Source of the DNA: a virus
Direction: 5' to 3' (one strand)
IMG/VR virus record: IMGVR_UViG_3300028569_002827
Coordinates: 1 to 48,921 of that record
Length of the DNA: 48,921 bases
The notes under the pieces: model-generated
What the model was told of the DNA's origin: nothing
Database searches by the model: none
Seen by the model: only the letters and a program-made list of their open reading frames with translations
Position numbers and translations under genes: made by a program
Shown here: positions 18,906 to 48,265 of the stretch, piece by piece
Position numbering within the stretch: position 1 is the stretch's first letter
Layout: every line of letters begins with the position of its first letter

Positions 18906-18942
18906 ACGCCCACACTGTTCGCGCCTTGTGGGCGTTTTGTTT
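18906..18942 (+). terminator. Intrinsic terminator after the toxin-antitoxin pair
   Basis: ACGCCCACA (18906-18914) pairs with TGTGGGCGT (18927-18935), 12-base loop, then TTTTGTTT. A strong canonical terminator separating the toxin-antitoxin unit from the methyltransferase. Confidence 0.8.
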
Positions 18943-19029
18943 GGGTCTTCACTTCCCCGCATCTATCGCGCTTGCAAGCAACCCTCGCTGGTTGACCTGC
19001 ACGCCGCACCCCAACCCGAAAGCTTTCCT

Positions 19030-20316
19030 ATGACACCCGAGATCCGAATGGTCCCGGTGGATTCGCTCATCCCGTATGCGCGAAACGCCCGCACCCACAG
19101 CGAAGACCAGGTGGCACAGATTGCCGCCTCGATCGCTGAGTTTGGCTTCACCAATCCGATCCTCACCGACGGCGACAAAGGCGTGATCGCAGGGCATGGA
19201 CGCCTGGCTGCGGCGCGCAAACTTGCACTGACACAAGTGCCCGTGATCGAGTTGGGCCACCTCACCGCAATTCAAAAGAAAGCCTACATCCTGGCCGACA
19301 ACCGCATCGCTGCCAACGCTGGCTGGGACGAAGAGTTGCTCAAGCTTGAGATTGCCGAACTCGATGAGGCTGACTTCAATCTGGATCTGATGGGCTTTGG
19401 TGACGAAGAACTCGAGCGTTTGCTCAATGGCGACGGCGACACCACGGGACTGACCGAAGACGATGCAGTACCCGATGTGCCAACTGACCCTGTCTCCAAA
19501 ACAGGCGATGTGTGGGTCCTGGGTCAGCACCGTTTGCTGTGCGGCGACTCCACTGTGCTCTCCGATGTCGAGCGCCTGATGAACGGTCAGCTCGCCGACA
19601 TGGCCTTCACCGATCCACCCTACAACGTGGACTACGGCAACAACGCCAAGGACAAGATGCGCGGCAAGGACCGCCGCATCATGAACGATGCGCTCGGAGA
19701 CGGCTTCTACAAGTTCCTCTACGACGCCTGCGTTAACTTGTTGGTGGTCACCAAAGGTGCCTGCTACGTGTGCATGAGCTCCTCTGAGTTGCACACCTTG
19801 CAAAAAGCCTGGCTTGATGCGGGCGGCAAGTGGTCCACATTTGTGATCTGGGCCAAGAACACTTTCACGCTCGGTCGCGCCGACTACCAGCGCCAGTACG
19901 AGCCCATCCTTTATGGTTGGAAAGATGGCGCAAAACACTTCTGGTGCGGTGACCGCGACCAGTCAGACATTTGGAATTACAACAAGCCCCGTGTGAACGA
20001 TTTGCACCCGACGATGAAGCCGGTGGAGTTGGTCGAGCGTGCCATCAAGAACTCATCCAAGACACGCGACATCGTGATCGATTTGTTTGGCGGATCTGGC
20101 ACAACGCTCATTGCCTGCGAGAAAACCAATCGCCAGGCAAGGCTCATGGAGATGGACCCCAAGTACGTGGACGTGATCGTCAAGCGTTGGGAGGACTTCA
20201 CAGGACAGAAAGCCACCCGTGAATCGGATGGCTCTGCGTTTGCGGATCTTTCGCCGCAGGCTCAGTCGGTTTTAGTTGATGCTGTGGGGAGCGAGCTGGA
20301 GGGTGAGACCCTGTAG
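19030..20316 (+). CDS. ParB-like / adenine- or cytosine-N DNA methyltransferase fusion
   Basis: 428 residues from the ATG at 19030; a longer start would run into the upstream terminator. The N-terminal ParB/Srx-like domain (about 1-95) shows VPVDSLIPYARNARTH, IAEFGFTNPILTD and GVIAGHGRLAAA. The methyltransferase domain follows, with DPPYNVDYG (about 196-204) before FGGSGTT (about 355-361). That order places it in the beta class of amino (N6-adenine or N4-cytosine) methyltransferases. Fusions of this kind are common in prophages and may protect phage DNA from host restriction. No cognate endonuclease is adjacent. The 3' end overlaps the convergent DUF3489 gene by 55 bases. Confidence 0.9.
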   Translation: MTPEIRMVPVDSLIPYARNARTHSEDQVAQIAASIAEFGFTNPILTDGDKGVIAGHGRLAAARKLALTQVPVIELGHLTAIQKKAYILADNRIAANAGWDEELLKLEIAELDEADFNLDLMGFGDEELERLLNGDGDTTGLTEDDAVPDVPTDPVSKTGDVWVLGQHRLLCGDSTVLSDVERLMNGQLADMAFTDPPYNVDYGNNAKDKMRGKDRRIMNDALGDGFYKFLYDACVNLLVVTKGACYVCMSSSELHTLQKAWLDAGGKWSTFVIWAKNTFTLGRADYQRQYEPILYGWKDGAKHFWCGDRDQSDIWNYNKPRVNDLHPTMKPVELVERAIKNSSKTRDIVIDLFGGSGTTLIACEKTNRQARLMEMDPKYVDVIVKRWEDFTGQKATRESDGSAFADLSPQAQSVLVDAVGSELEGETL

Positions 20317-36273: not shown

Positions 36274-36752
36274 AGAGCGGACGATCTTTCTACACATATG
36301 CGCGTATTCCGATTGCGACGGCGACCCAAGAACTGCAAGCCCTGGCCGAACGTGAGTACGAAGAAGTCGGCCAAAAGGATCTCGAACGCCTGAACATCGA
36401 CTGGGCTCGGTACGGCGAACTCGATGCCGCCGGGAAACTCGCCACCTTCATCGCCAAACGTGATGGCGTGATCGTGGGCTACGCCGCATTCATCGTGCAG
36501 ACCCACATCCATTACCAGGATGCGCTGGTCGCCGCCAACAGCGCTGTTTATGCCGTACCCGAGGTACGTGCTGGGCGTGTCGTTCTGAAGCTGCTGCGCT
36601 TTGCCGAGCTGGGCCTCAAAGCCCAGGGCGTGCAAAAGATTTATTACCACGTTAAACAGACCAAAGACTTCGGTCGCCTGCTCGGACACCTGGGCTACCA
36701 GGACGTCGAGCGCATGTACGCCAAGGTAGTTCAGGACAGGGAAGACGCGTAA
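36270..36752 (+). CDS. GNAT-fold acetyltransferase encoded in the tail-tip operon
   Basis: 160 residues from GTG 36270, which overlaps the previous TGA and has GGGGA at suitable spacing; a GTG 12 bases upstream is possible. GNAT signatures: KRDGVIVGYAAFIVQ (about 67-81), AVYAVPEVRAGRVVLKLLRFAELGLKAQGVQKIYYHV (about 92-128) covering motif A with a modified R/QxxGxG/A loop, and LLGHLGYQDVERMYAKVV at the C-terminus. Its position, where many siphophages carry a peptidase, suggests acetylation of a tail protein or host target. The loop RAGRVV lacks the second glycine, so activity is uncertain. Confidence 0.8.
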   Translation: MKSGRSFYTYARIPIATATQELQALAEREYEEVGQKDLERLNIDWARYGELDAAGKLATFIAKRDGVIVGYAAFIVQTHIHYQDALVAANSAVYAVPEVRAGRVVLKLLRFAELGLKAQGVQKIYYHVKQTKDFGRLLGHLGYQDVERMYAKVVQDREDA

Positions 36753-39721
36753 TGGCAGGCATCGTCATTGGAGCCATCGTTGGATCGGTGGTGTCCGAGG
36801 CCGTGGGTATCGTGGTGGCCGATGCCGTACTTGGCATGGTCATTGAGTCGGGCATCACGGCTGTAGCGGCTGACGTTCTTGGCGCATCGCTTGCCACTGC
36901 CAGTTTCATCGGCGGTGCGACCGGTTTGGTCGCCGGTGGTGTTGCCAACTTGGCGGTGCAGTCACTGATCGGCTCGAACTCGCCATCAAGCGCGCAGTCA
37001 GCGCTGTCTTCGGCCCAGGCGCAAGGCATCCTGATCAACTCTCAGAGCAATGTCGACCCCATTCCAGTGATTTACGGTCGCCGCCGGGTGGGTGGCACAC
37101 GGGTGTTCATTGAGGTCTCAGGCAGCAGCAACGAATACCTGCATCTGGTGCTGGTGCTCTCAGAAGGCCCAGTGACCGCGATCGATAACGTTTATCTGGA
37201 CGATGTGCTTTCTACGGACGCCAAGTTCACCGGGTTGCTCACTGTCACCAAGCATCTAGGTACACCCGGTGAAGCAGCCGATGCAGCACTAACCGCCGAT
37301 GTACCCAAGTGGACCAGCGCCTGCAAACTTTCCAACTGCGCCTACCTGTACGTCAAGCTCAAATACGACCGCAACGCATTCTCCGGCCTGCCCACAATCA
37401 CAGCCGACGTGCGTGGCAGAACTTTGTTCGACCCGCGAGACGGACAGACCCGGTATTCCAATAATCCAGCACTCGTCCTGCGGGACTACCTGAGCAACAC
37501 GATCTACGGGCGAGGCATCGCCAGCAGCGCGATCGATGACACGAGCATTTCGGCAGCCGCGAACGCCTGCGATGTGAGGATCACCGCTCCAAGTTTCTCT
37601 GACATTTTTACGGTCAGCACCACAACCGAAGCGTTGACTTTCTCCCAGCCGATACCTATCGACACAGGGGATGGCGTCAAGGTGAGCAGTACCGCCACCG
37701 TGCCCAGCCCGTTGGTGGCAGGGACAACTTATTACGCGATCAAGGCAACTGACACCAGCTACCAACTCGCCACCACGATGGCCAATGCCGTTGCTGGGAC
37801 CGCGATCGATCTGACATCGGCAGGCTCTGGCCAGCACACGCTCGCCCAGGTGAACTACGCGGCTTACGCCTGCGACGGCACGATCGACACCAACCAGACG
37901 GCGTATGACAACGTGCGCGCACTGCTTACCGCGTGCCGGGGCATGCTGGTGTTTAGCGGCGGCAAGTACCGGTTGGTGCTTGACGTTGCCACTACAGCCT
38001 CGAGCTTTGGGTTCACCGAGAGCAACATTACCGGCTCCTGGGTCATCAGCCAGGCCGGTAAACGCGCCAAGTACAACCGGGTCACCGCTGGTTTTTATAA
38101 CCCAGCCAAGAAGTGGCAGCCCGATCTGGCCATGGTCGAGTCCACAGCTTTGCGTGCCACCGATAACGGTCTGATTTTGGAAGCCAAGATCGACCTGCCG
38201 TTCACAGCCAACAGCTACCGGGCGCAGAACATCGGTCAGTTGACGCTGAACCAAAGCCGCTACGGCTTGGTCGTGAAGTTCTCCGCTTTTCAGGAAGGCT
38301 TGCGATGCGAGGTGGGGGATGTGGTGCCCATCACACATACAACGCCGGGTTGGTCCGCCAAGTTGTTCCGGATCATGCAGATCGAGATCAAGGACAACGA
38401 CGAGGTCTATGTCGTGGCCCGTGAATACAGCGCCAGTATTTACACGCAAGCGGTCCTGTCGCCTGCCGCCGTCATCGCTCAGTCCAATTTGCCAGACCCG
38501 TTCAGCGTGCCTGCCGTGTTGGGTCTCACCCTGGCCTCCGGAACATCTGAATTACTGCGACTGGCTGATGGCTCTGTCATTTCCCGCATCCGCGTGGGCT
38601 GGACCGCACCTACCGAGGTCTACGCTCAGAAGGGGCAGGTCGAAGTTCAGACCCAAGCTACGACCGATCTGGGATGGTCGCCGGTGGACATTGTTGCTGC
38701 CGAGTTGGGTGTGGCTTGGGTGTCACCTGTGCAAGACGGAGCCAGCTACAACGTGCGCATTCGGGCGATCAACTCGATCGGCGTACGCGGAGCATGGAGC
38801 CAGGGGACCGTTCAGGTGGTGGGTAAAACTGCACCACCGTCCGATGTCCCGTGGCTGCGCCTGGACGGCGAGCGCCTGACTTGGGGGCCAGTCTCAGATA
38901 TCGATCTTGCCGGTTACCGCGTGCGTTGGCAGCCGGGTGGCAGCCGTTCCTGGTCGGACGCGCTGGAATTGCACACCGGCCTGCTGGCTGTCTCCCCATG
39001 GGATTTGGTGACCATTCCTTATGGTGCAGGTCAGATCTTGATCAAAGCGTTCGATACCACCGGCAATGAGAGCCTGAACGTCAGGGCACTAGCCTGCAAC
39101 TTAGGTGATGCGCCGGTGGAGAACGTGTTTGCAAGCTACCCGCTCAACACGACGCCGGTGGTGGCACCCGATTCATCGCGCATGTGGAGCAACGATTCTG
39201 CTCAACTCTGGACCAACACTACGGCGGTGTTTCTGGTACCTCAGTACCAGGCTATTTTCTGGACCGGCAGCGTCACATTTACCGAGAGCGGCAGTCTCAC
39301 GATCGCGGCCACCGTCAGTGGGTATGCCTGGAAGATCACTTGGAAGAAGTCATCGGACGTGGCCTATGTGCCATTCCCGGGTCGGGCTTGGGCTGACGCA
39401 GGAACGACCTACCAGTTCCGCATCGATGTAGATCAGAGCAATTTGCAAGGCCTGATTGGCTCGGTGGTTGCGCAAATCGATGTGCCCGATAAAACGATTC
39501 GCCTACCCGATGTGGTGATTGCCTCGGGCGGTTCGCGCTTGTCGATTGGCACCGGCTGGCGAAACGTGGTGATTGTGAGTCTCACTTTGCATTCAGACGG
39601 TGGCACTGCCACCACGGCCCGCGTGGTCGATAAATCAACTTCGGGTCCCCTGATCCAGTGTTTCAACGCCAGTGGCGCTGCAACCGCTGGGACGGTGGAC
39701 GCCTTCGTTCAAGGATATTGA
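36752..39721 (+). CDS. Tail tip / central fibre protein (gpJ-like)
   Basis: 989 residues. A hydrophobic Ala/Gly/Val-rich N-terminus (about 1-85) is followed by DPIPVIYGRRRVGGTRVFIEVSGSSNEYLHLVLVLSEGPV, the conserved start of siphophage tip proteins. A tail-tip core with YNRVTAGFYNPAKKWQPD and a fibronectin-like pair (about 590-800) lead to a C-terminal lectin-like beta region. It is shorter than lambda gpJ and probably acts as the hub carrying separate fibre proteins encoded next. The ATG overlaps the GNAT stop (TAATG). Confidence 0.87.
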   Translation: MAGIVIGAIVGSVVSEAVGIVVADAVLGMVIESGITAVAADVLGASLATASFIGGATGLVAGGVANLAVQSLIGSNSPSSAQSALSSAQAQGILINSQSNVDPIPVIYGRRRVGGTRVFIEVSGSSNEYLHLVLVLSEGPVTAIDNVYLDDVLSTDAKFTGLLTVTKHLGTPGEAADAALTADVPKWTSACKLSNCAYLYVKLKYDRNAFSGLPTITADVRGRTLFDPRDGQTRYSNNPALVLRDYLSNTIYGRGIASSAIDDTSISAAANACDVRITAPSFSDIFTVSTTTEALTFSQPIPIDTGDGVKVSSTATVPSPLVAGTTYYAIKATDTSYQLATTMANAVAGTAIDLTSAGSGQHTLAQVNYAAYACDGTIDTNQTAYDNVRALLTACRGMLVFSGGKYRLVLDVATTASSFGFTESNITGSWVISQAGKRAKYNRVTAGFYNPAKKWQPDLAMVESTALRATDNGLILEAKIDLPFTANSYRAQNIGQLTLNQSRYGLVVKFSAFQEGLRCEVGDVVPITHTTPGWSAKLFRIMQIEIKDNDEVYVVAREYSASIYTQAVLSPAAVIAQSNLPDPFSVPAVLGLTLASGTSELLRLADGSVISRIRVGWTAPTEVYAQKGQVEVQTQATTDLGWSPVDIVAAELGVAWVSPVQDGASYNVRIRAINSIGVRGAWSQGTVQVVGKTAPPSDVPWLRLDGERLTWGPVSDIDLAGYRVRWQPGGSRSWSDALELHTGLLAVSPWDLVTIPYGAGQILIKAFDTTGNESLNVRALACNLGDAPVENVFASYPLNTTPVVAPDSSRMWSNDSAQLWTNTTAVFLVPQYQAIFWTGSVTFTESGSLTIAATVSGYAWKITWKKSSDVAYVPFPGRAWADAGTTYQFRIDVDQSNLQGLIGSVVAQIDVPDKTIRLPDVVIASGGSRLSIGTGWRNVVIVSLTLHSDGGTATTARVVDKSTSGPLIQCFNASGAATAGTVDAFVQGY

Positions 39722-40297: not shown

Positions 40298-41743
40298 ATG
40301 CCCAACCTCATTCAAATCAAACGATCCGCCACCACCGCTACGCCTCCAACGCTGGCAGTGGGTGAACTGGCCTGGTCCGAAGTCAGCAAGACCCTGTTCA
40401 TTGGCGAGTCTGGCAGTGTTGTCACTGCCGCCGCTGGCTCGGGAGTCTTTGCCAAGAAGGCTGACAGCTTCGCAGTCAGTGGAGATGCGACCGGCACAGG
40501 TACTCTGTCGGGCGGCGTGGTGCTGGCACTGGCGGCCAGTGGTGTCAGCGCAGGCAGTTACTCCAACGTCACGGTGGATGCCAAGGGACGCGTGACTGGC
40601 GGCTCAAATCCGGGTTACCTCACTGCCAACCAGAACATCACGGTGTCTGGTGATGCAACGGGTTCAGGCACAACAGCGATTGCACTGACTCTGGCCAGCA
40701 GCGGTGTTACGGCGGGGACTTACAACAACGGCGTCACGGCGCACACGCCATTCACTGTTGATGCAAAAGGCCGCATTACCGCCATCGGTACAGCCGTAAC
40801 AGTGACGCCCGCCTGGGCCAGTGTCACCGGCAAGCCAACTACGCTGTCTGGCTACGGGATCACCGACGCACTGTCGCTCACCGGAGGCACGCTAACTGGC
40901 GCTTTGACTTTAGCGGCGGACCCTACCAACGCACTTCACGCAGCAACCAAGCAGTACGTGGACAACGCCATCACCGGGCTGGACTTCAAAGCGTCGGTTC
41001 GCGCGGCCACCACGGCCAACATCACGCTCTCTGGAACACAGACGATTGACGGTGTAGCGCTCATCGCAGGTGACAGGGTGCTGGTCAAAGACCAGACGAC
41101 TCCAAGCCAGAACGGTTTGTATTTGGTGGCCGCAGGCGCATGGACGCGCACGGCAGACGCCGACAACTCTCCTGCAGGCGAGGTCTCCTCCGGGCTATAC
41201 ACCTTTATAGAGGAAGGGACTACCTACGCTGATTCAGGTTGGGTGCTTGCCAGCAACAACCCGATCACGATAGGCACTACCGCCTTGACTTTTCAGCAAT
41301 TCAACGGTCTGGGACAACTCACTGCGGGCACAGGCCTGACCAAGTCCGGCAATACGCTGTCGATCACCGCCTCGGGCGTCACGGCGGGCACCTATTCCAG
41401 CATGACGGTGGACGTCACCGGACGGGTCACTGGGGGCACCAACCCAGGCTACATCACAGCCAACCAAAACATCACGGTCTCAGGCGATGTCACTGGTTCG
41501 GGCACAACATCGATGGCGCTCACCCTGGCTGCCAGCGGCGTGACGGCGGGCACATACAACAATTCAGCCACGGCGCATACGCCATTCACCGTTGATGCCA
41601 AAGGCAGAGTCACAGCCATTGGTGCGGCTGTCACGGTCACGCCCGCATGGACCAGCGTCAGTGGCAAACCTACAACCCTGTCTGGCTTTGGTATCACGGA
41701 CGCCTTGTCCACCAGCGCCACGATTGACGGAGGCTCGTTCTAA
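40298..41743 (+). CDS. Tail fibre protein with internal duplication
   Basis: 481 residues. It opens with MPNLIQIKRSATTATPPTLAVGEL, a fibre-anchor segment shared with the small gene at 41746. A long Ser/Thr/Gly/Ala-rich beta-structured shaft follows, interrupted by HAATKQYVDNAITGLDFKASVRAATTAN (about 210-240), a phage fibre connector motif. Two nearly identical 114-residue blocks flank it (see the repeat entry). No cysteine tail and no chaperone domain. Likely a trimeric side or tip fibre involved in host attachment. Confidence 0.85.
   Translation: MPNLIQIKRSATTATPPTLAVGELAWSEVSKTLFIGESGSVVTAAAGSGVFAKKADSFAVSGDATGTGTLSGGVVLALAASGVSAGSYSNVTVDAKGRVTGGSNPGYLTANQNITVSGDATGSGTTAIALTLASSGVTAGTYNNGVTAHTPFTVDAKGRITAIGTAVTVTPAWASVTGKPTTLSGYGITDALSLTGGTLTGALTLAADPTNALHAATKQYVDNAITGLDFKASVRAATTANITLSGTQTIDGVALIAGDRVLVKDQTTPSQNGLYLVAAGAWTRTADADNSPAGEVSSGLYTFIEEGTTYADSGWVLASNNPITIGTTALTFQQFNGLGQLTAGTGLTKSGNTLSITASGVTAGTYSSMTVDVTGRVTGGTNPGYITANQNITVSGDVTGSGTTSMALTLAASGVTAGTYNNSATAHTPFTVDAKGRVTAIGAAVTVTPAWTSVSGKPTTLSGFGITDALSTSATIDGGSF
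40535..41709 (+). repeat. Duplicated 341-base block in the fibre gene
   Basis: 40535-40875 and 41369-41709, offset by 834 bases, encode closely similar segments (GRVTGG-NPGY-TANQNITVSGD, TVDAKGR-TAIG-AVTVTPAW, GKPTTLSG-GITDALS). Recombination between them could delete or duplicate the middle of the fibre. Confidence 0.85.
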
Positions 41744-41952: not shown

Positions 41953-42570
41953 ATGGCAGCTATTCCATCCAAGGCCAGTTTCACTGGCACTACCGTAACC
42001 CAAGGGCAGTTCAAGACTGCCCTTGATTCTTTAAACGACTACCTTACGGGTTTGCTGGGCTCAGACGGTACAGCAGCGACAGCGCGAACGGCATTGGGCG
42101 TGATCAATGCGACAGCGCCGACGTATGCGCAGGTGATTGCCGCACTCGGTTTCACGCCTCCGCAGCCCGGTGGCACCGGCGCATCAGGGACCTGGCCTAT
42201 CAGCGTAAGCGGCAATGCGGCCACCGCATCCAAACTCAATTCAACGGCGGGCGCTGGCACGTACAACTGGACGGGGCAGTCCGGTCAGCCGACCTGGGTT
42301 TGGGGTGGTAACGACGGAACCAATTTCTATGTCTACAACCCGTCTAACTTCTCGGTGAACTACGCGGGTAGCGCAGGCACTGTGCCCTGGACTGGCGTGA
42401 GTGGACGCCCCACTGCGGTTGCAGATTTTCAGTACAGCGGAAACGTTGGGGATGGCATCGGAGGTGCGTTAGCTGTCAACGCACTGGTTCAAGTCGCGAC
42501 CGATAACACGGTGCGCATTTATCGAAACACGAACTGCAATTGCAATTGCGATTGTGCTTGCTGCTGCTAA
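41953..42570 (+). CDS. Tail fibre protein ending in a seven-cysteine tail (putative maturase substrate)
   Basis: 205 residues. The body is a fibre-type sequence: a helical N-terminal segment (TQGQFKTALDSLNDYLTGLLG), TARTALGVIN, then Gly/Ser/Asn/Trp-rich strands with repeated NW-G/PTWVWGG patterns. There is no cysteine in residues 1-194. The last twelve residues are NCNCNCDCACCC (Cys at 195, 197, 199, 201, 203, 204, 205). The three genes that follow encode an Ig-like protein, a 2OG-oxygenase-like protein and a radical SAM/SPASM enzyme. I infer that this tail is enzymatically crosslinked or otherwise modified. Metal binding or disulfides without enzyme action are alternatives. Confidence 0.8.
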   Translation: MAAIPSKASFTGTTVTQGQFKTALDSLNDYLTGLLGSDGTAATARTALGVINATAPTYAQVIAALGFTPPQPGGTGASGTWPISVSGNAATASKLNSTAGAGTYNWTGQSGQPTWVWGGNDGTNFYVYNPSNFSVNYAGSAGTVPWTGVSGRPTAVADFQYSGNVGDGIGGALAVNALVQVATDNTVRIYRNTNCNCNCDCACCC

Positions 42571-42581
42571 GGACCCACAAC

Positions 42582-43373
42582 ATGAAAATCATTGCAGTGC
42601 GAAACGCAAAAATTCATCCCCAGTTTCAACCCACCGTTCACCTTGGTTTCGACCCTGTCACGAGCGACCTGAGCGTGTCTCTGTATCTGCCATCGCTTGC
42701 GACAGAGGAGGCGGCCACGGGTGTCGCTGGCTTGACGTTGATTGAGTCGGTGGTTGTCAACATCGGCGATCTGCGAAAGAGATACGACTGGTGCGATCAC
42801 CAGACCTACTTCGTGGCTGTTCATGCCGGGGCGTTTCTTCCAGTCTTTGCGCTGTACCCGGAGACCCTTCCCAATCGCGAGACAGCTGTTGACTACGCCC
42901 AGCGCCTCAAGAGAAATCTGCTGGTGGGCATCAACGTGCCATTTGCAAACGCCAATGACGATGAGTTGTTCATCACGGTGAACCTCAACGCGCAGGCAAC
43001 AGACGCCAATATTCAGGTCGATGAGAACTGCACGTTGGTTTGGAGCGAAGCAGCTAGCAGCGGCGCTGTTCGCACCATGGCGTTTCCGTTCATTCATGTG
43101 CAAGCGCCAGCCAGTATTCCGGTGGGCGGCATTGCCTCGATCGAATTGCGCATAGAGGATGTGGCAGGCCAACTGCTTGACCGAGAGGCTGTTGTCTACC
43201 TGGAAGCTGTGAGCGGACTGGTGCCTTTTGCACGCGTGCGTGCGAACCATGGCTTGGCTACTGTTCCCGTCTCGGCAGCAGGCATGTCTGCTGGTGATGA
43301 AATCCGGGTGAAGTTTGGATGGAAATATTTCCCAGGCGCAGAGGATGCGCGGATTGCGGTGGTGGCCGCATGA
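42582..43373 (+). CDS. Unknown protein with C-terminal Ig-like domain, in the fibre-maturation operon
   Basis: 263 residues from ATG 42582, with AAGGA 10-14 bases upstream. The N-terminal 165 residues are a mixed domain with YDWCDHQTYFVAVHAGAFLPVFALYPE and are not recognised. The C-terminal ~90 residues (IHVQAPASIPVGGIASIELRIEDVAGQLLDREAVVYLEAVSGLVP to the end) match the rhythm of a bacterial Ig-like fold. Only two cysteines are present. It lies between the Cys-tailed fibre and the two putative enzymes and is coupled to the second by an ATGA overlap. It may be a second fibre subunit, a substrate carrier or a chaperone. Confidence 0.6.
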   Translation: MKIIAVRNAKIHPQFQPTVHLGFDPVTSDLSVSLYLPSLATEEAATGVAGLTLIESVVVNIGDLRKRYDWCDHQTYFVAVHAGAFLPVFALYPETLPNRETAVDYAQRLKRNLLVGINVPFANANDDELFITVNLNAQATDANIQVDENCTLVWSEAASSGAVRTMAFPFIHVQAPASIPVGGIASIELRIEDVAGQLLDREAVVYLEAVSGLVPFARVRANHGLATVPVSAAGMSAGDEIRVKFGWKYFPGAEDARIAVVAA

Positions 43374-43927
43374 TGCAACTGCTTTTTCCTACACCTGTCG
43401 TTCGCACCCAGCTTGGGCTGACGAACGAAGAGCGTCAAGTCCTCAAAGAAAAGACGCTCGCAGTCTATGGCGATCTCAACCCCGATAGAAAACCTTGGAG
43501 CCGCTCGACCCGTGAGTCACTCGAATCCATGGATCCTGCATTTGCAGACCTGTTCGCACGAATCAAAACCGTGACCAGCGAGGCTTTCGGTATTGGCATC
43601 GCATCCATCACCGGCAGGGAAGTGGTTCAGTTCAAAGGTGACTTCGTACCGCCCCATGTGGAGTCAGCCCATCTGTCTGCCATTTACTGGATTGATGGGG
43701 ACGCCCACCCTGACCCTGAGAGAGGCGAGCATGACGGCGCACTGGTTTTGCAAAGCCCAATCGGCCCCTTTGGCAGCAAGGCGCTGCCCGGTGAAAAGCG
43801 CGTGTCCATGATCAACCCTCAGCCGGATTTGCTGCTGGTGTTTCCGAGCCACTTGCTTCATTTCGGGCATGTTTACCTGGGCGAGCGTCCCAGCGTTGAA
43901 ATCCACATTGAGATGGAGGTGCTCTGA
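43370..43927 (+). CDS. 2OG-Fe(II) oxygenase-like protein (PF13759-like)
   Basis: 185 residues from ATG 43370, overlapping the preceding stop. The pattern fits the putative 2OG-Fe(II) oxygenase family: LLFPTPVVRTQLGL at the N-terminus, PPHVESAHLSAIYWIDGD (His96, Glu98), then PQPDLLLVFPSHLLHFGHVYLGERPSVEIHIEM (His161/164/167, Arg173). His96-x-Glu98 and one of the later histidines could bind iron, and Arg173 the 2-oxoglutarate. Family members hydroxylate amino acid side chains. It may act on the fibre tail or the neighbouring protein. It is coupled to the radical SAM gene by TGATG. Confidence 0.75.
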   Translation: MMQLLFPTPVVRTQLGLTNEERQVLKEKTLAVYGDLNPDRKPWSRSTRESLESMDPAFADLFARIKTVTSEAFGIGIASITGREVVQFKGDFVPPHVESAHLSAIYWIDGDAHPDPERGEHDGALVLQSPIGPFGSKALPGEKRVSMINPQPDLLLVFPSHLLHFGHVYLGERPSVEIHIEMEVL

Positions 43928-45294
43928 TGGCCCAGTTCAAGATCAAGCTCATTGCGCCGGACAACACAGAGCGCGAACTGCTGTACGACAACCAGACCAG
44001 CAGCCTGACTTGGGGAGCGGATGGGTTTGGCTCCCTGGTACTGGAAGTCAATCCCAAAACGTTTCAGGACGCCACGGTCGTGAGTACCACCCAGCCAGGC
44101 CGAAAAGGCCTAATCAAAACCCTCAAAATCAGCCTCGGTTTGTCCTGCAACTACGAGTGCAACTACTGCAGCCAGCGCTTTGTGCCCCACGCTGAAAGCA
44201 CCAACCCCGAGGATGTAGAGAATTTTCTGCAGCAATTGACCACCAGCCTAAGTCAGGCTCCCGAACGGATTGAATTTTGGGGCGGTGAACCACTGGTCTA
44301 CATCAAGACCTTAAAGCCCTTGGCTGAGCGCCTGCGAGTGCTCTACCCGGATGCTGAGTTCCTGATCATCACCAACGGCTCATTGCTCAGTCTTGAGACC
44401 AACGAGTGGCTGGACCGCATAGGCTTCGTCGTCGGGCTCTCCCACGATGGGCCTGGCTACCACGCACGCGGTGCAGACCCGCTGGACGAACCAGAGAAGC
44501 GTGCAGCCATCATGGATCTGTACGCGCGCCTCCATCCGCAGGGGCGCATCAGCATCAACGCGATGATCAGCAATCAAAACCCGAGCAGGGCAGCAGTACA
44601 GATTTGGCTGCAAGAACGCTTTGGTGCCGATGTTCAGATTGGTGAAGGTGCTTTTATTGACCCCTACGATGAAGGTGGGCTGGCTGCCACCTTCAAGACC
44701 ACCGCTGAGCACGCACAGTTTCGCAGGCAAGGGTTTGGCGAGATCCGCACTGGCCTTGCCAGTCGCTTTGACCTCACCAACCAAAAGATCCAAGACTTCA
44801 TCGATTCCATTCGCTACCAGCGCCCAGCCTCTGCGCTTGGGCAAAAGTGCGGCATGGACCGCAGCAACAACCTAGCTGTGGATCTCAAAGGCAATGTCGT
44901 CACGTGCCAAAACGTGAGCGCCGCTGCCACGGCTCCGAATGGCCAGAGCCATCTGATCGGCCAGCTTTCAGATCTGTCCGCCGTGCGCATGAAAAGCGCC
45001 ACGCATTGGAGCGAGCGCCAAGGCTGCTCGTCTTGCCCGGTGCTTCAAATGTGCAAGGGCTCGTGCATGTTCTTGGAAGGGCCGCTTTGGGATGCTGGGT
45101 GCGACGCCGCCTATTCGGACAACTTGGTGTTCTTTGCGGCGGCCATTGAGTTCCTCACGGGGTGCATGCCGGTCTTTATCGATGGCGATTTACCGCCAGA
45201 GCGCAAGGACATCTTTGGCCTTGCAAAGAGCACCGTGGAGTCGCCTCCAACAAGGCGAGTGATTCCGATCCTTGCCGCGCAGCAAACAGCCTAA
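43927..45294 (+). CDS. Radical SAM/SPASM peptide-maturase-like enzyme
   Basis: 455 residues. Residues 1-65 form a short strand-rich leader domain. The radical SAM cluster motif is C74-x3-C78-x2-C81 (SCNYECNYCSQ), followed by GGEP at 119-122 for SAM binding. The SPASM domain is complete: C308-x13-G-x4-C327, gap, C367-x2-C370-x5-C376-x3-C380, gap, C392, enough for two auxiliary Fe-S clusters. This arrangement is found in enzymes that crosslink or oxidise ribosomal peptides (sactipeptide, ranthipeptide and related maturases) and in anaerobic sulfatase-maturing enzymes. It is the last gene before the operon terminator, co-transcribed with the Cys-tailed fibre. Confidence 0.92.
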   Translation: MAQFKIKLIAPDNTERELLYDNQTSSLTWGADGFGSLVLEVNPKTFQDATVVSTTQPGRKGLIKTLKISLGLSCNYECNYCSQRFVPHAESTNPEDVENFLQQLTTSLSQAPERIEFWGGEPLVYIKTLKPLAERLRVLYPDAEFLIITNGSLLSLETNEWLDRIGFVVGLSHDGPGYHARGADPLDEPEKRAAIMDLYARLHPQGRISINAMISNQNPSRAAVQIWLQERFGADVQIGEGAFIDPYDEGGLAATFKTTAEHAQFRRQGFGEIRTGLASRFDLTNQKIQDFIDSIRYQRPASALGQKCGMDRSNNLAVDLKGNVVTCQNVSAAATAPNGQSHLIGQLSDLSAVRMKSATHWSERQGCSSCPVLQMCKGSCMFLEGPLWDAGCDAAYSDNLVFFAAAIEFLTGCMPVFIDGDLPPERKDIFGLAKSTVESPPTRRVIPILAAQQTA

Positions 45295-45370: not shown

Positions 45371-45380
45371 GGAGATGCCC

Positions 45381-45680
45381 ATGACAGAAGAATCCACCAG
45401 CAACCAAAGCGCTGACATCCTGAACCTGCGCCCTGAGGACCTTGATGAGTTGCTCACCCGCGCCGCCGAGCGGGGTGCCGAGCGCGCGTTGGCCTGCCTT
45501 GGCCTTGAAAACGGCCACGCCGCCGCCGACATCCGCGACCTGCGGGGTCTCATCGATGCGTGGCGGGAAGCGCGCCGAACGGCTTGGCAAACCTCGATCA
45601 AGGTACTGACCACCGGTGTGTTGGCAGCACTTTTGGTTGGAATCGCCATCAAGTTGCGCCTGATGGGGGGTTCCCAATGA
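45381..45680 (+). CDS. DUF6127 family membrane protein of the lysis module
   Basis: 99 residues from the ATG at 45381, six bases after GGAG; an ATG two codons earlier overlaps that GGAG and is less likely. The pattern LNLRPEDLDELLTRAAERGAERALACLGLENGHAAADIRDLRGLIDAWREARR matches DUF6127. A single C-terminal transmembrane helix (VLTTGVLAALLVGIAIKLRL, about 75-94) follows. Genes of this family sit at the start of phage lysis modules and may act as holin partner. Its stop overlaps the next start. Confidence 0.78.
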   Translation: MTEESTSNQSADILNLRPEDLDELLTRAAERGAERALACLGLENGHAAADIRDLRGLIDAWREARRTAWQTSIKVLTTGVLAALLVGIAIKLRLMGGSQ

Positions 45681-46681: not shown

Positions 46682-48265
46682 TCAGTTCAGCAGTACTGAA
46701 TTTAGTTTTCTCAGGCTTGGTAAAACCATCTTGATGGTGAATGCATCAGGCCGTGGTTGCCCTTTTCTTGTTGAACAAGTCATCAACTTTACGAGCATAT
46801 CTTGTGGGATCTTGTCGACGCCATGAAGCGTGCCGATCAGCCCTCCTACGATGCATGCATTGGTGTCGGTGTCTCCGCCCCGTTCCAGAGTTTGTGTCAA
46901 CGCATCTTCGTAGCTATCTTTGCATCGAAGGTGATAGAAGGCGAAAGTAAAAGCATGTTTGACAAAGCCTGCTAGTGGGTAGGCTGGTGCAGGTTTATTG
47001 GTGATGATGCTTTCCATCCACTCAGTCACTTCTTCGCTGCTTTCCCGGACATACGTCATCGCGACCGCGAAGGCGCCTTTGGCGTCACCAGGGTGACGAA
47101 TTAGATGTCGGATCGCCAGAACATATGCCGCAGTAGCGTGCTGACAAGTTTCGTTAGGGTGCGTCAGACATGCATCTTTTCTGGCAACCTGAATTGCATC
47201 TTCTTGGCTTAGAGCTGCAGAAATAATCCCTAGCGGAGTGGCTCTCATCAAACTGCCGTTTGCTTTAGATTCGCTGTTGAAAGTGGTAGCTTGTTTTTTT
47301 ACCTTTACCTCAATTGCATCCGTGCTTTCATCGTAGGGGTACTCCATCAGTGCACTTGAAGTAGCCATTCCGATGTCAAATGGTTTGGAACGCTCCCAAC
47401 TGCAATAGGCATTGGCCACTTGGTTCACCAAGTAGCTTCCATTTGACTGGGCAAGGCTGTTCAAAAGGGCGACAGTCATTTCACCGTCATCTGTGAACTG
47501 CCCAGGAGCTAGATTGAAAACTCCGCCTCCAGGCATGTCGAGCGCCTTTTGCACCTCCTCTTTCGTTGGCTTACGACCCATGAACTCCAGCACCCCACCG
47601 GCTGCGTCGCCAATCAGTGCGCCGAAAACACTACCGTACATTGCGCGTTCAGCGCTAGTTAACTCATCAGTCTCCATCATTTTTTCAGGAAGGTTACCAA
47701 GAAGGGTTTTCAGTTCTTTAGATTGGCGCACCAGTTGCGCTGATGGGTAGGTGGTACATGCGCCATTACTACGGTTAACAATTTCAGCAATACCCTGAGT
47801 GGTCTCCAAGACCATTTTCAGCTTGTCATAGGTATTTTCGCCCAAAAGGATGTTCCAGGCCTTGACCAGGCTTGTCTTGTTGTTGTCGATCAGCCCTTGA
47901 CCTGCGTGCAGCCAGAACTGTTCTTTTGCTGCTCCTTCGGCCAGTTCTCTTTCTACTCGGTAATTTTCAAATGAACTTTCTTCACTGCATCGCTTAATTT
48001 GTTCAGCATTAAGGACGTATGAACACTCTTTCCCCTCCGGGCCTTCAATTGCGCGATACGTGGCAGTCAATTTAACGGGGTCAACCTCAATACATTGCCA
48101 GCACCCCCCACCCTCGGCAGTTACCATGTTGTAAGACTTACCAATGCAGGCCCAGAGTTCAAAGACACCCCAGCCGCCACAGACCCACTCAGGCTCCAGG
48201 CACATCGAAATATTGCCGTTTTCCACCCGCAAAGCGCCTGCCTTCAGTGTTTTTCTTCTACGCAT
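46682..48265 (-). CDS. ADP-ribosylglycohydrolase-family protein with a novel N-terminal half
   Basis: 527 residues. Residues about 206-527 are the ADP-ribosylglycohydrolase fold: MYGSVFGALIGDAAGGVLEF, then FTDDGEMTVALLNSLA (the metal-binding TDD), ANGSLMRATPLGI, and the C-terminal ERGGDTDTNACIVGGLIGTLHG. All the acidic metal ligands appear present. The first ~200 residues, with MVTAEGGGCWQCIEVDP and several cysteines, are not recognised. Such enzymes remove ADP-ribose from proteins, DNA or small molecules. It lies on the opposite strand after the lysis genes, a common position for added cargo. It could defend the host or the phage against ADP-ribosylating effectors, or be a host gene. Confidence 0.85.
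   Translation of the reverse strand: MRRRKTLKAGALRVENGNISMCLEPEWVCGGWGVFELWACIGKSYNMVTAEGGGCWQCIEVDPVKLTATYRAIEGPEGKECSYVLNAEQIKRCSEESSFENYRVERELAEGAAKEQFWLHAGQGLIDNNKTSLVKAWNILLGENTYDKLKMVLETTQGIAEIVNRSNGACTTYPSAQLVRQSKELKTLLGNLPEKMMETDELTSAERAMYGSVFGALIGDAAGGVLEFMGRKPTKEEVQKALDMPGGGVFNLAPGQFTDDGEMTVALLNSLAQSNGSYLVNQVANAYCSWERSKPFDIGMATSSALMEYPYDESTDAIEVKVKKQATTFNSESKANGSLMRATPLGIISAALSQEDAIQVARKDACLTHPNETCQHATAAYVLAIRHLIRHPGDAKGAFAVAMTYVRESSEEVTEWMESIITNKPAPAYPLAGFVKHAFTFAFYHLRCKDSYEDALTQTLERGGDTDTNACIVGGLIGTLHGVDKIPQDMLVKLMTCSTRKGQPRPDAFTIKMVLPSLRKLNSVLLN

Follow-up and report, generated by a model that had tools for sequence, protein, structure and literature searches.

A phage radical-SAM/SPASM enzyme probably modifies the C-terminal Asn-Cys repeat of a tail fibre from the same gene block

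The window analysed here is a stretch of viral DNA of 48,921 nucleotides. It harbours a block of genes, all on the plus strand, that encodes from 5′ to 3′ a J-like tail tip, fibre-like proteins, a 205-aa fibre, a 263-aa beta protein, a 2OG oxygenase-like protein and a radical-SAM/SPASM enzyme. The central tail fibre J-like tip protein (36752-39721) places this cassette in the receptor-binding region, and a 481-aa tail-fibre-like protein (40298-41743), encoded upstream, contains no cysteine. The 263-aa protein (42582-43373) is an accessory component, present in 104 of 152 loci; its model (pLDDT 94.8) shows two beta domains, the C-terminal one Ig-like, with Ig-like, intimin and macroglobulin matches. 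The 2OG-Fe(II) oxygenase-like protein (PHROG 81; 43370-43927) is a frequent but optional partner (120/152 loci), and its His95 and His163, numbered from the Met at 43373, are invariant in the sampled set. An essential role for the oxygenase was ruled out, because its gene was gained or lost at least 12 times on the tree and is absent from Achromobacter phage JWF. Stop and start codons overlap between the 263-aa gene and the oxygenase gene, and again between the oxygenase gene and the enzyme gene (TGATG, 43925-43929), which suggests that these three genes are translationally coupled.

Directly 3′ of the enzyme lies a gene for a DUF6127 protein (45378-45680), followed by a lysozyme gene, an arrangement common to 33 loci. 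Elsewhere in the window we noted a minus-strand ORF (46682-48265) that by eye resembles an ADP-ribosylglycohydrolase and faces the lysis genes, and a ParB-like nuclease fused with a DNA methyltransferase (18928-20316). Two Limnohabitans genomes (L081, L082) encode enzymes 95-96% identical to that of the window, and the window is therefore probably derived from a phage of the Limnohabitans group.

The 205-aa fibre, the proposed substrate, mentioned in the original reading, is a real ORF (41953-42570). Encoded three genes upstream of the enzyme, it ends in NTNCNCNCDCACCC. All seven of its cysteines fall within the last 12 residues, and this Cys tail, NCNCNCDCACCC (42532-42567), is the proposed cross-linking site. 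Across the window's 333 ORFs, the second-highest count of cysteines in the last 12 residues is three, and shuffled sequence, with about 8,400 ORFs, never yielded more than five. In tails of relatives the repeats vary in synonymous codons, with both Asn codons used in 85 of 107 tails, which indicates selection on the protein and rules out an origin of the tail by slippage of a DNA repeat.

The reading frame of the enzyme (43927-45294) is open throughout and encodes 455 aa. Its assignment as a radical-SAM/SPASM protein and proposed maturase of the fibre tail is based on Pfam, NCBIfam and PHROG profiles, a family alignment, an AlphaFold2 model and comparison with PDB folds. The protein matches Pfam Radical_SAM (PF04055) above the cut-off, the SPASM profile TIGR04085 at residues 308-382 (35.2 bits against a cut-off of 27) and PHROG 1802 (E=3.9e-59), to which it belongs and which is annotated as radical SAM domain-containing protein and nothing further. 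The radical-SAM cluster motif is C74-x3-C78-x2-C81 (44146-44169), and the SPASM cysteines (44848-45102) are arranged as C308-x13-G322-x4-C327 ... C367-x2-C370-x5-C376-x3-C380-x11-C392, which agrees with the canonical motif CX9-15GX4C...CX2CX5CX3C...C (PMC5715301). All ten cysteines are invariant in an alignment of 60 family sequences with 37-90% identity to the window enzyme. When two remote homologues were added, six of the SPASM cysteines stayed invariant and C392 nearly so (at least 90%). The original count of seven SPASM cysteines with canonical spacing was thus right, and with both the CxxxCxxC and the seven-Cys motif the enzyme belongs to the full SPASM subfamily of radical SAM proteins. 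Judged from this cysteine pattern, it would carry two auxiliary clusters. The AlphaFold2 model, built from 62 sequences, has a mean pLDDT of 91.3 and a pTM of 0.88, and its nearest PDB folds are anSMEcpe (the top match) and CteB. Over the full length the enzyme resembles characterised maturases only weakly; the best NCBIfam match is the ranthipeptide maturase PapB, far under the cut-off.

The N-terminal 65 residues had been described as strand-rich and as a possible RRE-like recognition domain. The first part of this description holds for residues 1-30, which form a sheet of three beta strands (3-9, 15-21 and 26-29), and fails for residues 30-64, which are mostly coil. An RRE consists of three strands and three helices (PMC8326336). 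As residues 1-64 (43927-44118) contain no helix of four or more residues in the model, the module is not a winged-helix RRE, and the enzyme falls outside the RRE-dependent RiPP maturases, which have such a domain at the N-terminus. The 263-aa protein was likewise rejected as an RRE acting in trans, its model being a two-domain beta protein with Ig-like matches. In the alignment the N-terminal segment is short in Rhodobacterales relatives, and the radical-SAM enzymes of L231 and L233 start at the core, yet adjoin Cys-tailed fibres. Within the 60-sequence family Y20 and S25 are nearly invariant. The segment is a conserved accessory sheet in the family of the window enzyme and may contribute to recognition or binding of the tail.

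We then related enzyme and tail in both directions. Starting from the enzyme only, we collected the best 80 of 422 viral loci, 69 genome loci and two cultured phages, Achromobacter phages JWF and 2-1, whose enzymes have 48% identity. A tail was counted when at least three X-Cys units occurred in a run near the C-terminus or immediately ahead of a Hint domain. Upstream sequence of 4.5 kb or more was available for 119 loci, whose viral part comes from the best 80 of 422. In 108 of them a protein with an [N/D/A]-Cys repeat tail was encoded within 5.5 kb on the same strand, and only one locus had a tail-like ORF on the opposite strand. After dereplication, 92 of 106 enzymes had a tail. Most of the 11 tail-less loci are enzyme fragments or break off short of the fibre; the repeats of L052 and L142 are imperfect, and L130 and L132 are unexplained exceptions. 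Only 19 loci share a recognisable form of the window's fibre body, so that the tail is the common feature, borne by unrelated carriers.

For the reverse direction, a viral collection was scanned for DNA encoding NCNCNC[ND]C, a scan blind to the enzyme. Of the tails found at a C-terminus or ahead of a Hint domain, 52 had 4 kb or more of downstream sequence, and every one of these was accompanied by a radical-SAM gene on the same strand, compared to 3 of the 25 pattern matches that failed the tail definition. Two of these three (L169 and L175) carry close family members, and some true tails may therefore have been missed. When only distinct tails were considered, the enzyme was found in 37 of 38, a median of 1.3 kb away; the lone exception lies at a contig edge. 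The enzymes reached from the tail include the divergent ones of L161, L164, L231 and L233, and their best profile is often PapB.

The pairing of the enzyme family with the Asn-Cys tail, found in both search directions and on otherwise unrelated fibres, is strongly supported, and it bears out the proposal that the fibre Cys tail is the likely substrate of a full-SPASM enzyme. The enzyme could instead act on a small molecule or a host protein, with an incidental neighbourhood. Other phage radical-SAM genes would fit such a role, for example that of Campylobacter phage F379, which has no such tail in the neighbouring genes that were read. However, two-way pairing across unrelated fibres and divergent enzymes makes this highly improbable, and we consider it very likely that the enzyme acts on the tail.

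Some further arrangements were seen in the course of these searches. L063 (3549-4473) and L068 (3717-4572) each have three small ORFs in succession, of 89-107 aa and all ending in an Asn-Cys repeat, that adjoin one radical-SAM gene and resemble a multi-precursor peptide cluster. In L164 (3051-10408), L216 and L170, proteins of 67-79 aa ending in HTHIFYDDYST-ACNCNCNCNC adjoin several radical-SAM-type genes in a row. In Thermus phage phiMa (L276, 4994-7281) a His-x-Asp-x repeat protein adjoins a radical-SAM/SPASM-like gene whose own product ends in similar repeats at its C-terminus; this is perhaps a different repeat handled similarly.

The window itself encodes no Hint domain. In JWF, 2-1, L057, L133-L136, L149, L214, L225, L233 and L246, a Hint-type sequence with its initial Cys follows the repeat directly or after a few residues, as in the junction NCNCDCNCSC-FPAGTMVLMADGT. 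Pfam Hint matched above the cut-off in L150 and below it in other loci. The position of the Hint N-terminal Cys right after the tail, together with the profile match, points to intein-like Hint processing in these relatives, and cleavage there could free the repeat as the C-terminus. Hint and plain tails interchange at least six times on the enzyme tree, which indicates repeated arrival at, or departure from, a form in which the tail would become the C-terminus upon cleavage.

The composition of the tail gives an indication of the chemistry. As statistics on tails selected by the pattern are biased by that pattern, positions were counted in an enzyme-anchored set, selected without reference to the tails. 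In the 74 distinct tails of this set, Asn precedes Cys in 95% of first units, 67% of middle units and 36% of last units. Such a fall is expected if each Asn joins a later Cys and the last Asn has no partner, as in overlapping Asn-x-x-Cys units: in NCNCNC, each N except the last has a C three residues later. It also fits other models. In the small peptide NxxcA, Asn20 and Cys23 are joined by a beta-carbon thioether (PMC8326336), and PapB accepts Cys-Xn-Asp with n=0-6 and forms nested rings (PMC9413430).

At the tip of the fibre, the same tails might instead coordinate a metal or an iron-sulfur cluster, the enzyme only preparing or tuning them or making another residue change such as epimerisation or methylation. 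A parallel is known from some phage fibres, in which iron is held by His-x-His motifs. A tail dense in cysteines makes a good ligand, many thiols would come together in a trimeric fibre, and an accessory oxygenase is encoded nearby. On the other hand, metal binding needs neither the Asn-rich, regular X-Cys spacing nor the gradient of Asn from first to last unit, and the pairing from tail to enzyme is near absolute, so that the enzyme is not optional. We therefore regard a metal-binding tail as unlikely.

With regard to the active site, both auxiliary clusters of anSMEcpe are fully ligated by cysteines, with the help of one extra cysteine, Cys261 (PMC5715301), whereas an auxiliary cluster of CteB has an open site that is proposed to bind the substrate thiol (PMC8326336). 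No cysteine is present at the position of Cys261 in the alignments of the window enzyme's family, and its first auxiliary cluster therefore probably has an open site, as in CteB. This result also bears on the oxidation of Cys or Ser to formylglycine, which had been put forward as an alternative on account of the shared cysteine pattern of anaerobic sulfatase maturases. It would be in line with anSMEcpe as the top structural match and with the deposition of the JWF relative (L151, 8001-9365) as 'anaerobic sulfatase-maturating enzyme'. However, in agreement with the earlier motif reading, the 205-aa fibre contains no C/S-x-P/A-x-R site, neither with Cys nor with Ser, and the few S-type matches in other genes of the window are unconvincing. 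Moreover, anSMEcpe Asp277, which follows Cys276 and which we take to be the catalytic base, aligns with Gln328 of the window enzyme. On substrate motif and cluster ligands we therefore reject formylglycine formation, which has a very small probability, and the label of the JWF enzyme is probably a misannotation.

Sactipeptide-type thioethers, in which sulfur is joined to the alpha carbon, would involve the same substrate and a different carbon. Sactisynthases have a SPASM architecture too, Asn and other residues serve as acceptors in sactipeptides (PMC8326336), and Ala, Gly or Ser occupy some X positions of the tails. The best family scores, though weak, are nevertheless those of the beta-carbon enzyme PapB and of QhpD/PeaB, and we give alpha-carbon linkage a rather low probability. 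Given the Asn gradient, the NxxcA and PapB precedents, the absent Cys261 counterpart and the nearest folds anSMEcpe and CteB, we rank beta-carbon thioethers first, followed by alpha-carbon thioethers, a metal-binding tail and formylglycine.

Taken together, the phage enzyme probably is a maturase acting on the Asn-Cys repeat at the C-terminus of a tail fibre from the same gene block, and by analogy its product can reasonably be expected to contain Cys thioethers. In the mechanism that we propose, SAM-derived radicals would join the Cys sulfur to the beta carbon of a preceding Asn or Asp. The acceptor would most likely be the residue three positions before the Cys (N-x-x-C, as in NxxcA), although this Asn-x-x-Cys beta-carbon register is advanced tentatively. 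A sequence such as NCNCNCDC would then become a ladder of overlapping thioether rings, with the donor thiol held by the auxiliary SPASM cluster that lacks a fourth Cys ligand, as proposed for CteB. The result would be a rigid, reduction-insensitive tip on the host-binding fibre, and in some phages the same C-terminus would arise once a Hint domain behind the tail has cleaved itself off. A role in adsorption or in tip stability is about as likely as not. The accessory oxygenase could act on the same tail residues as the enzyme. All chemistry of the enzyme on the tail is argued by analogy, and its product is one that we infer rather than one that was observed.

A literature search that left aside most subscription journals and all preprints returned no paper describing the pairing of this enzyme with an Asn-Cys tail, and the pairing is likely new to the literature. 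The system appears to be radical-SAM/SPASM peptide maturation, known elsewhere, moved onto a phage fibre, and with this enzyme phages probably cross-link their own host-binding fibres at the tip. This type of maturation has been described mainly for antibiotics, signals and cofactors; here it appears linked to the part of a phage that contacts the host, both across hundreds of environmental phages and among prophages from several groups of bacteria. Whether it amounts to a widespread form of virion maturation, in which radical-SAM enzymes turn fibre Asn-Cys ladders into fused thioether rings and some lineages expose or activate the tip by Hint, is a proposal that we hold with neither belief nor disbelief prevailing. 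If true, it would represent a ranthipeptide-like modification of a viral structural protein by an enzyme that works without a leader and cross-links a large folded protein at its end, and would add a post-translational layer to host recognition. It would also explain many phage radical-SAM genes that are annotated by domain only or as sulfatase maturases. The cultured Achromobacter phages JWF and 2-1 make the proposal directly testable.

Among known systems, PapB, the maturase of the ranthipeptide freyrasin, combines radical SAM and a full SPASM domain like the window enzyme, and its substrate is Cys-rich with regularly spaced acidic or amide residues, as here. The window enzyme nevertheless lies outside the PapB family (NF047865; 52.7 bits against a cut-off of 340), and PapB is proposed to select a small peptide by its leader through an RRE (PMC9413430), whereas the candidate substrate here is a virion fibre. 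A Cys-rich candidate substrate encoded close to the enzyme is one feature of ranthipeptide synthases, a functional class whose members join the Cys sulfur to a carbon other than the alpha carbon. The Asn-x-x-Cys unit of NxxcA from Streptococcus orisratti has the spacing between alternate N and C of the phage tail, but forms a single ring in a small peptide, unlike the proposed ladder; the likeness is one of substrates. CteB, the SCIFF maturase (PDB 5WGG), matches the fold of the enzyme model with E=1.2e-11. Its auxiliary cluster has an open site, and the corresponding cluster of the window enzyme has three likely Cys ligands; CteB has an N-terminal RRE, where the window enzyme has three strands only. 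QhpD/PeaB, the maturase of quinohemoprotein amine dehydrogenase, forms Cys-Asp/Glu thioethers inside a large protein, as proposed here, but is a non-phage enzyme with about 23-25% identity over 70%. Finally, anSMEcpe (PDB 4K36-4K39), the top fold match, shares the same seven SPASM cysteines, but its extra ligand Cys261 is absent from the window enzyme and its substrate motif from the fibre. In line with this, the window enzyme scores 39 bits against a cut-off of 349 for the anaerobic sulfatase maturases (TIGR03942) and stands apart from that family.
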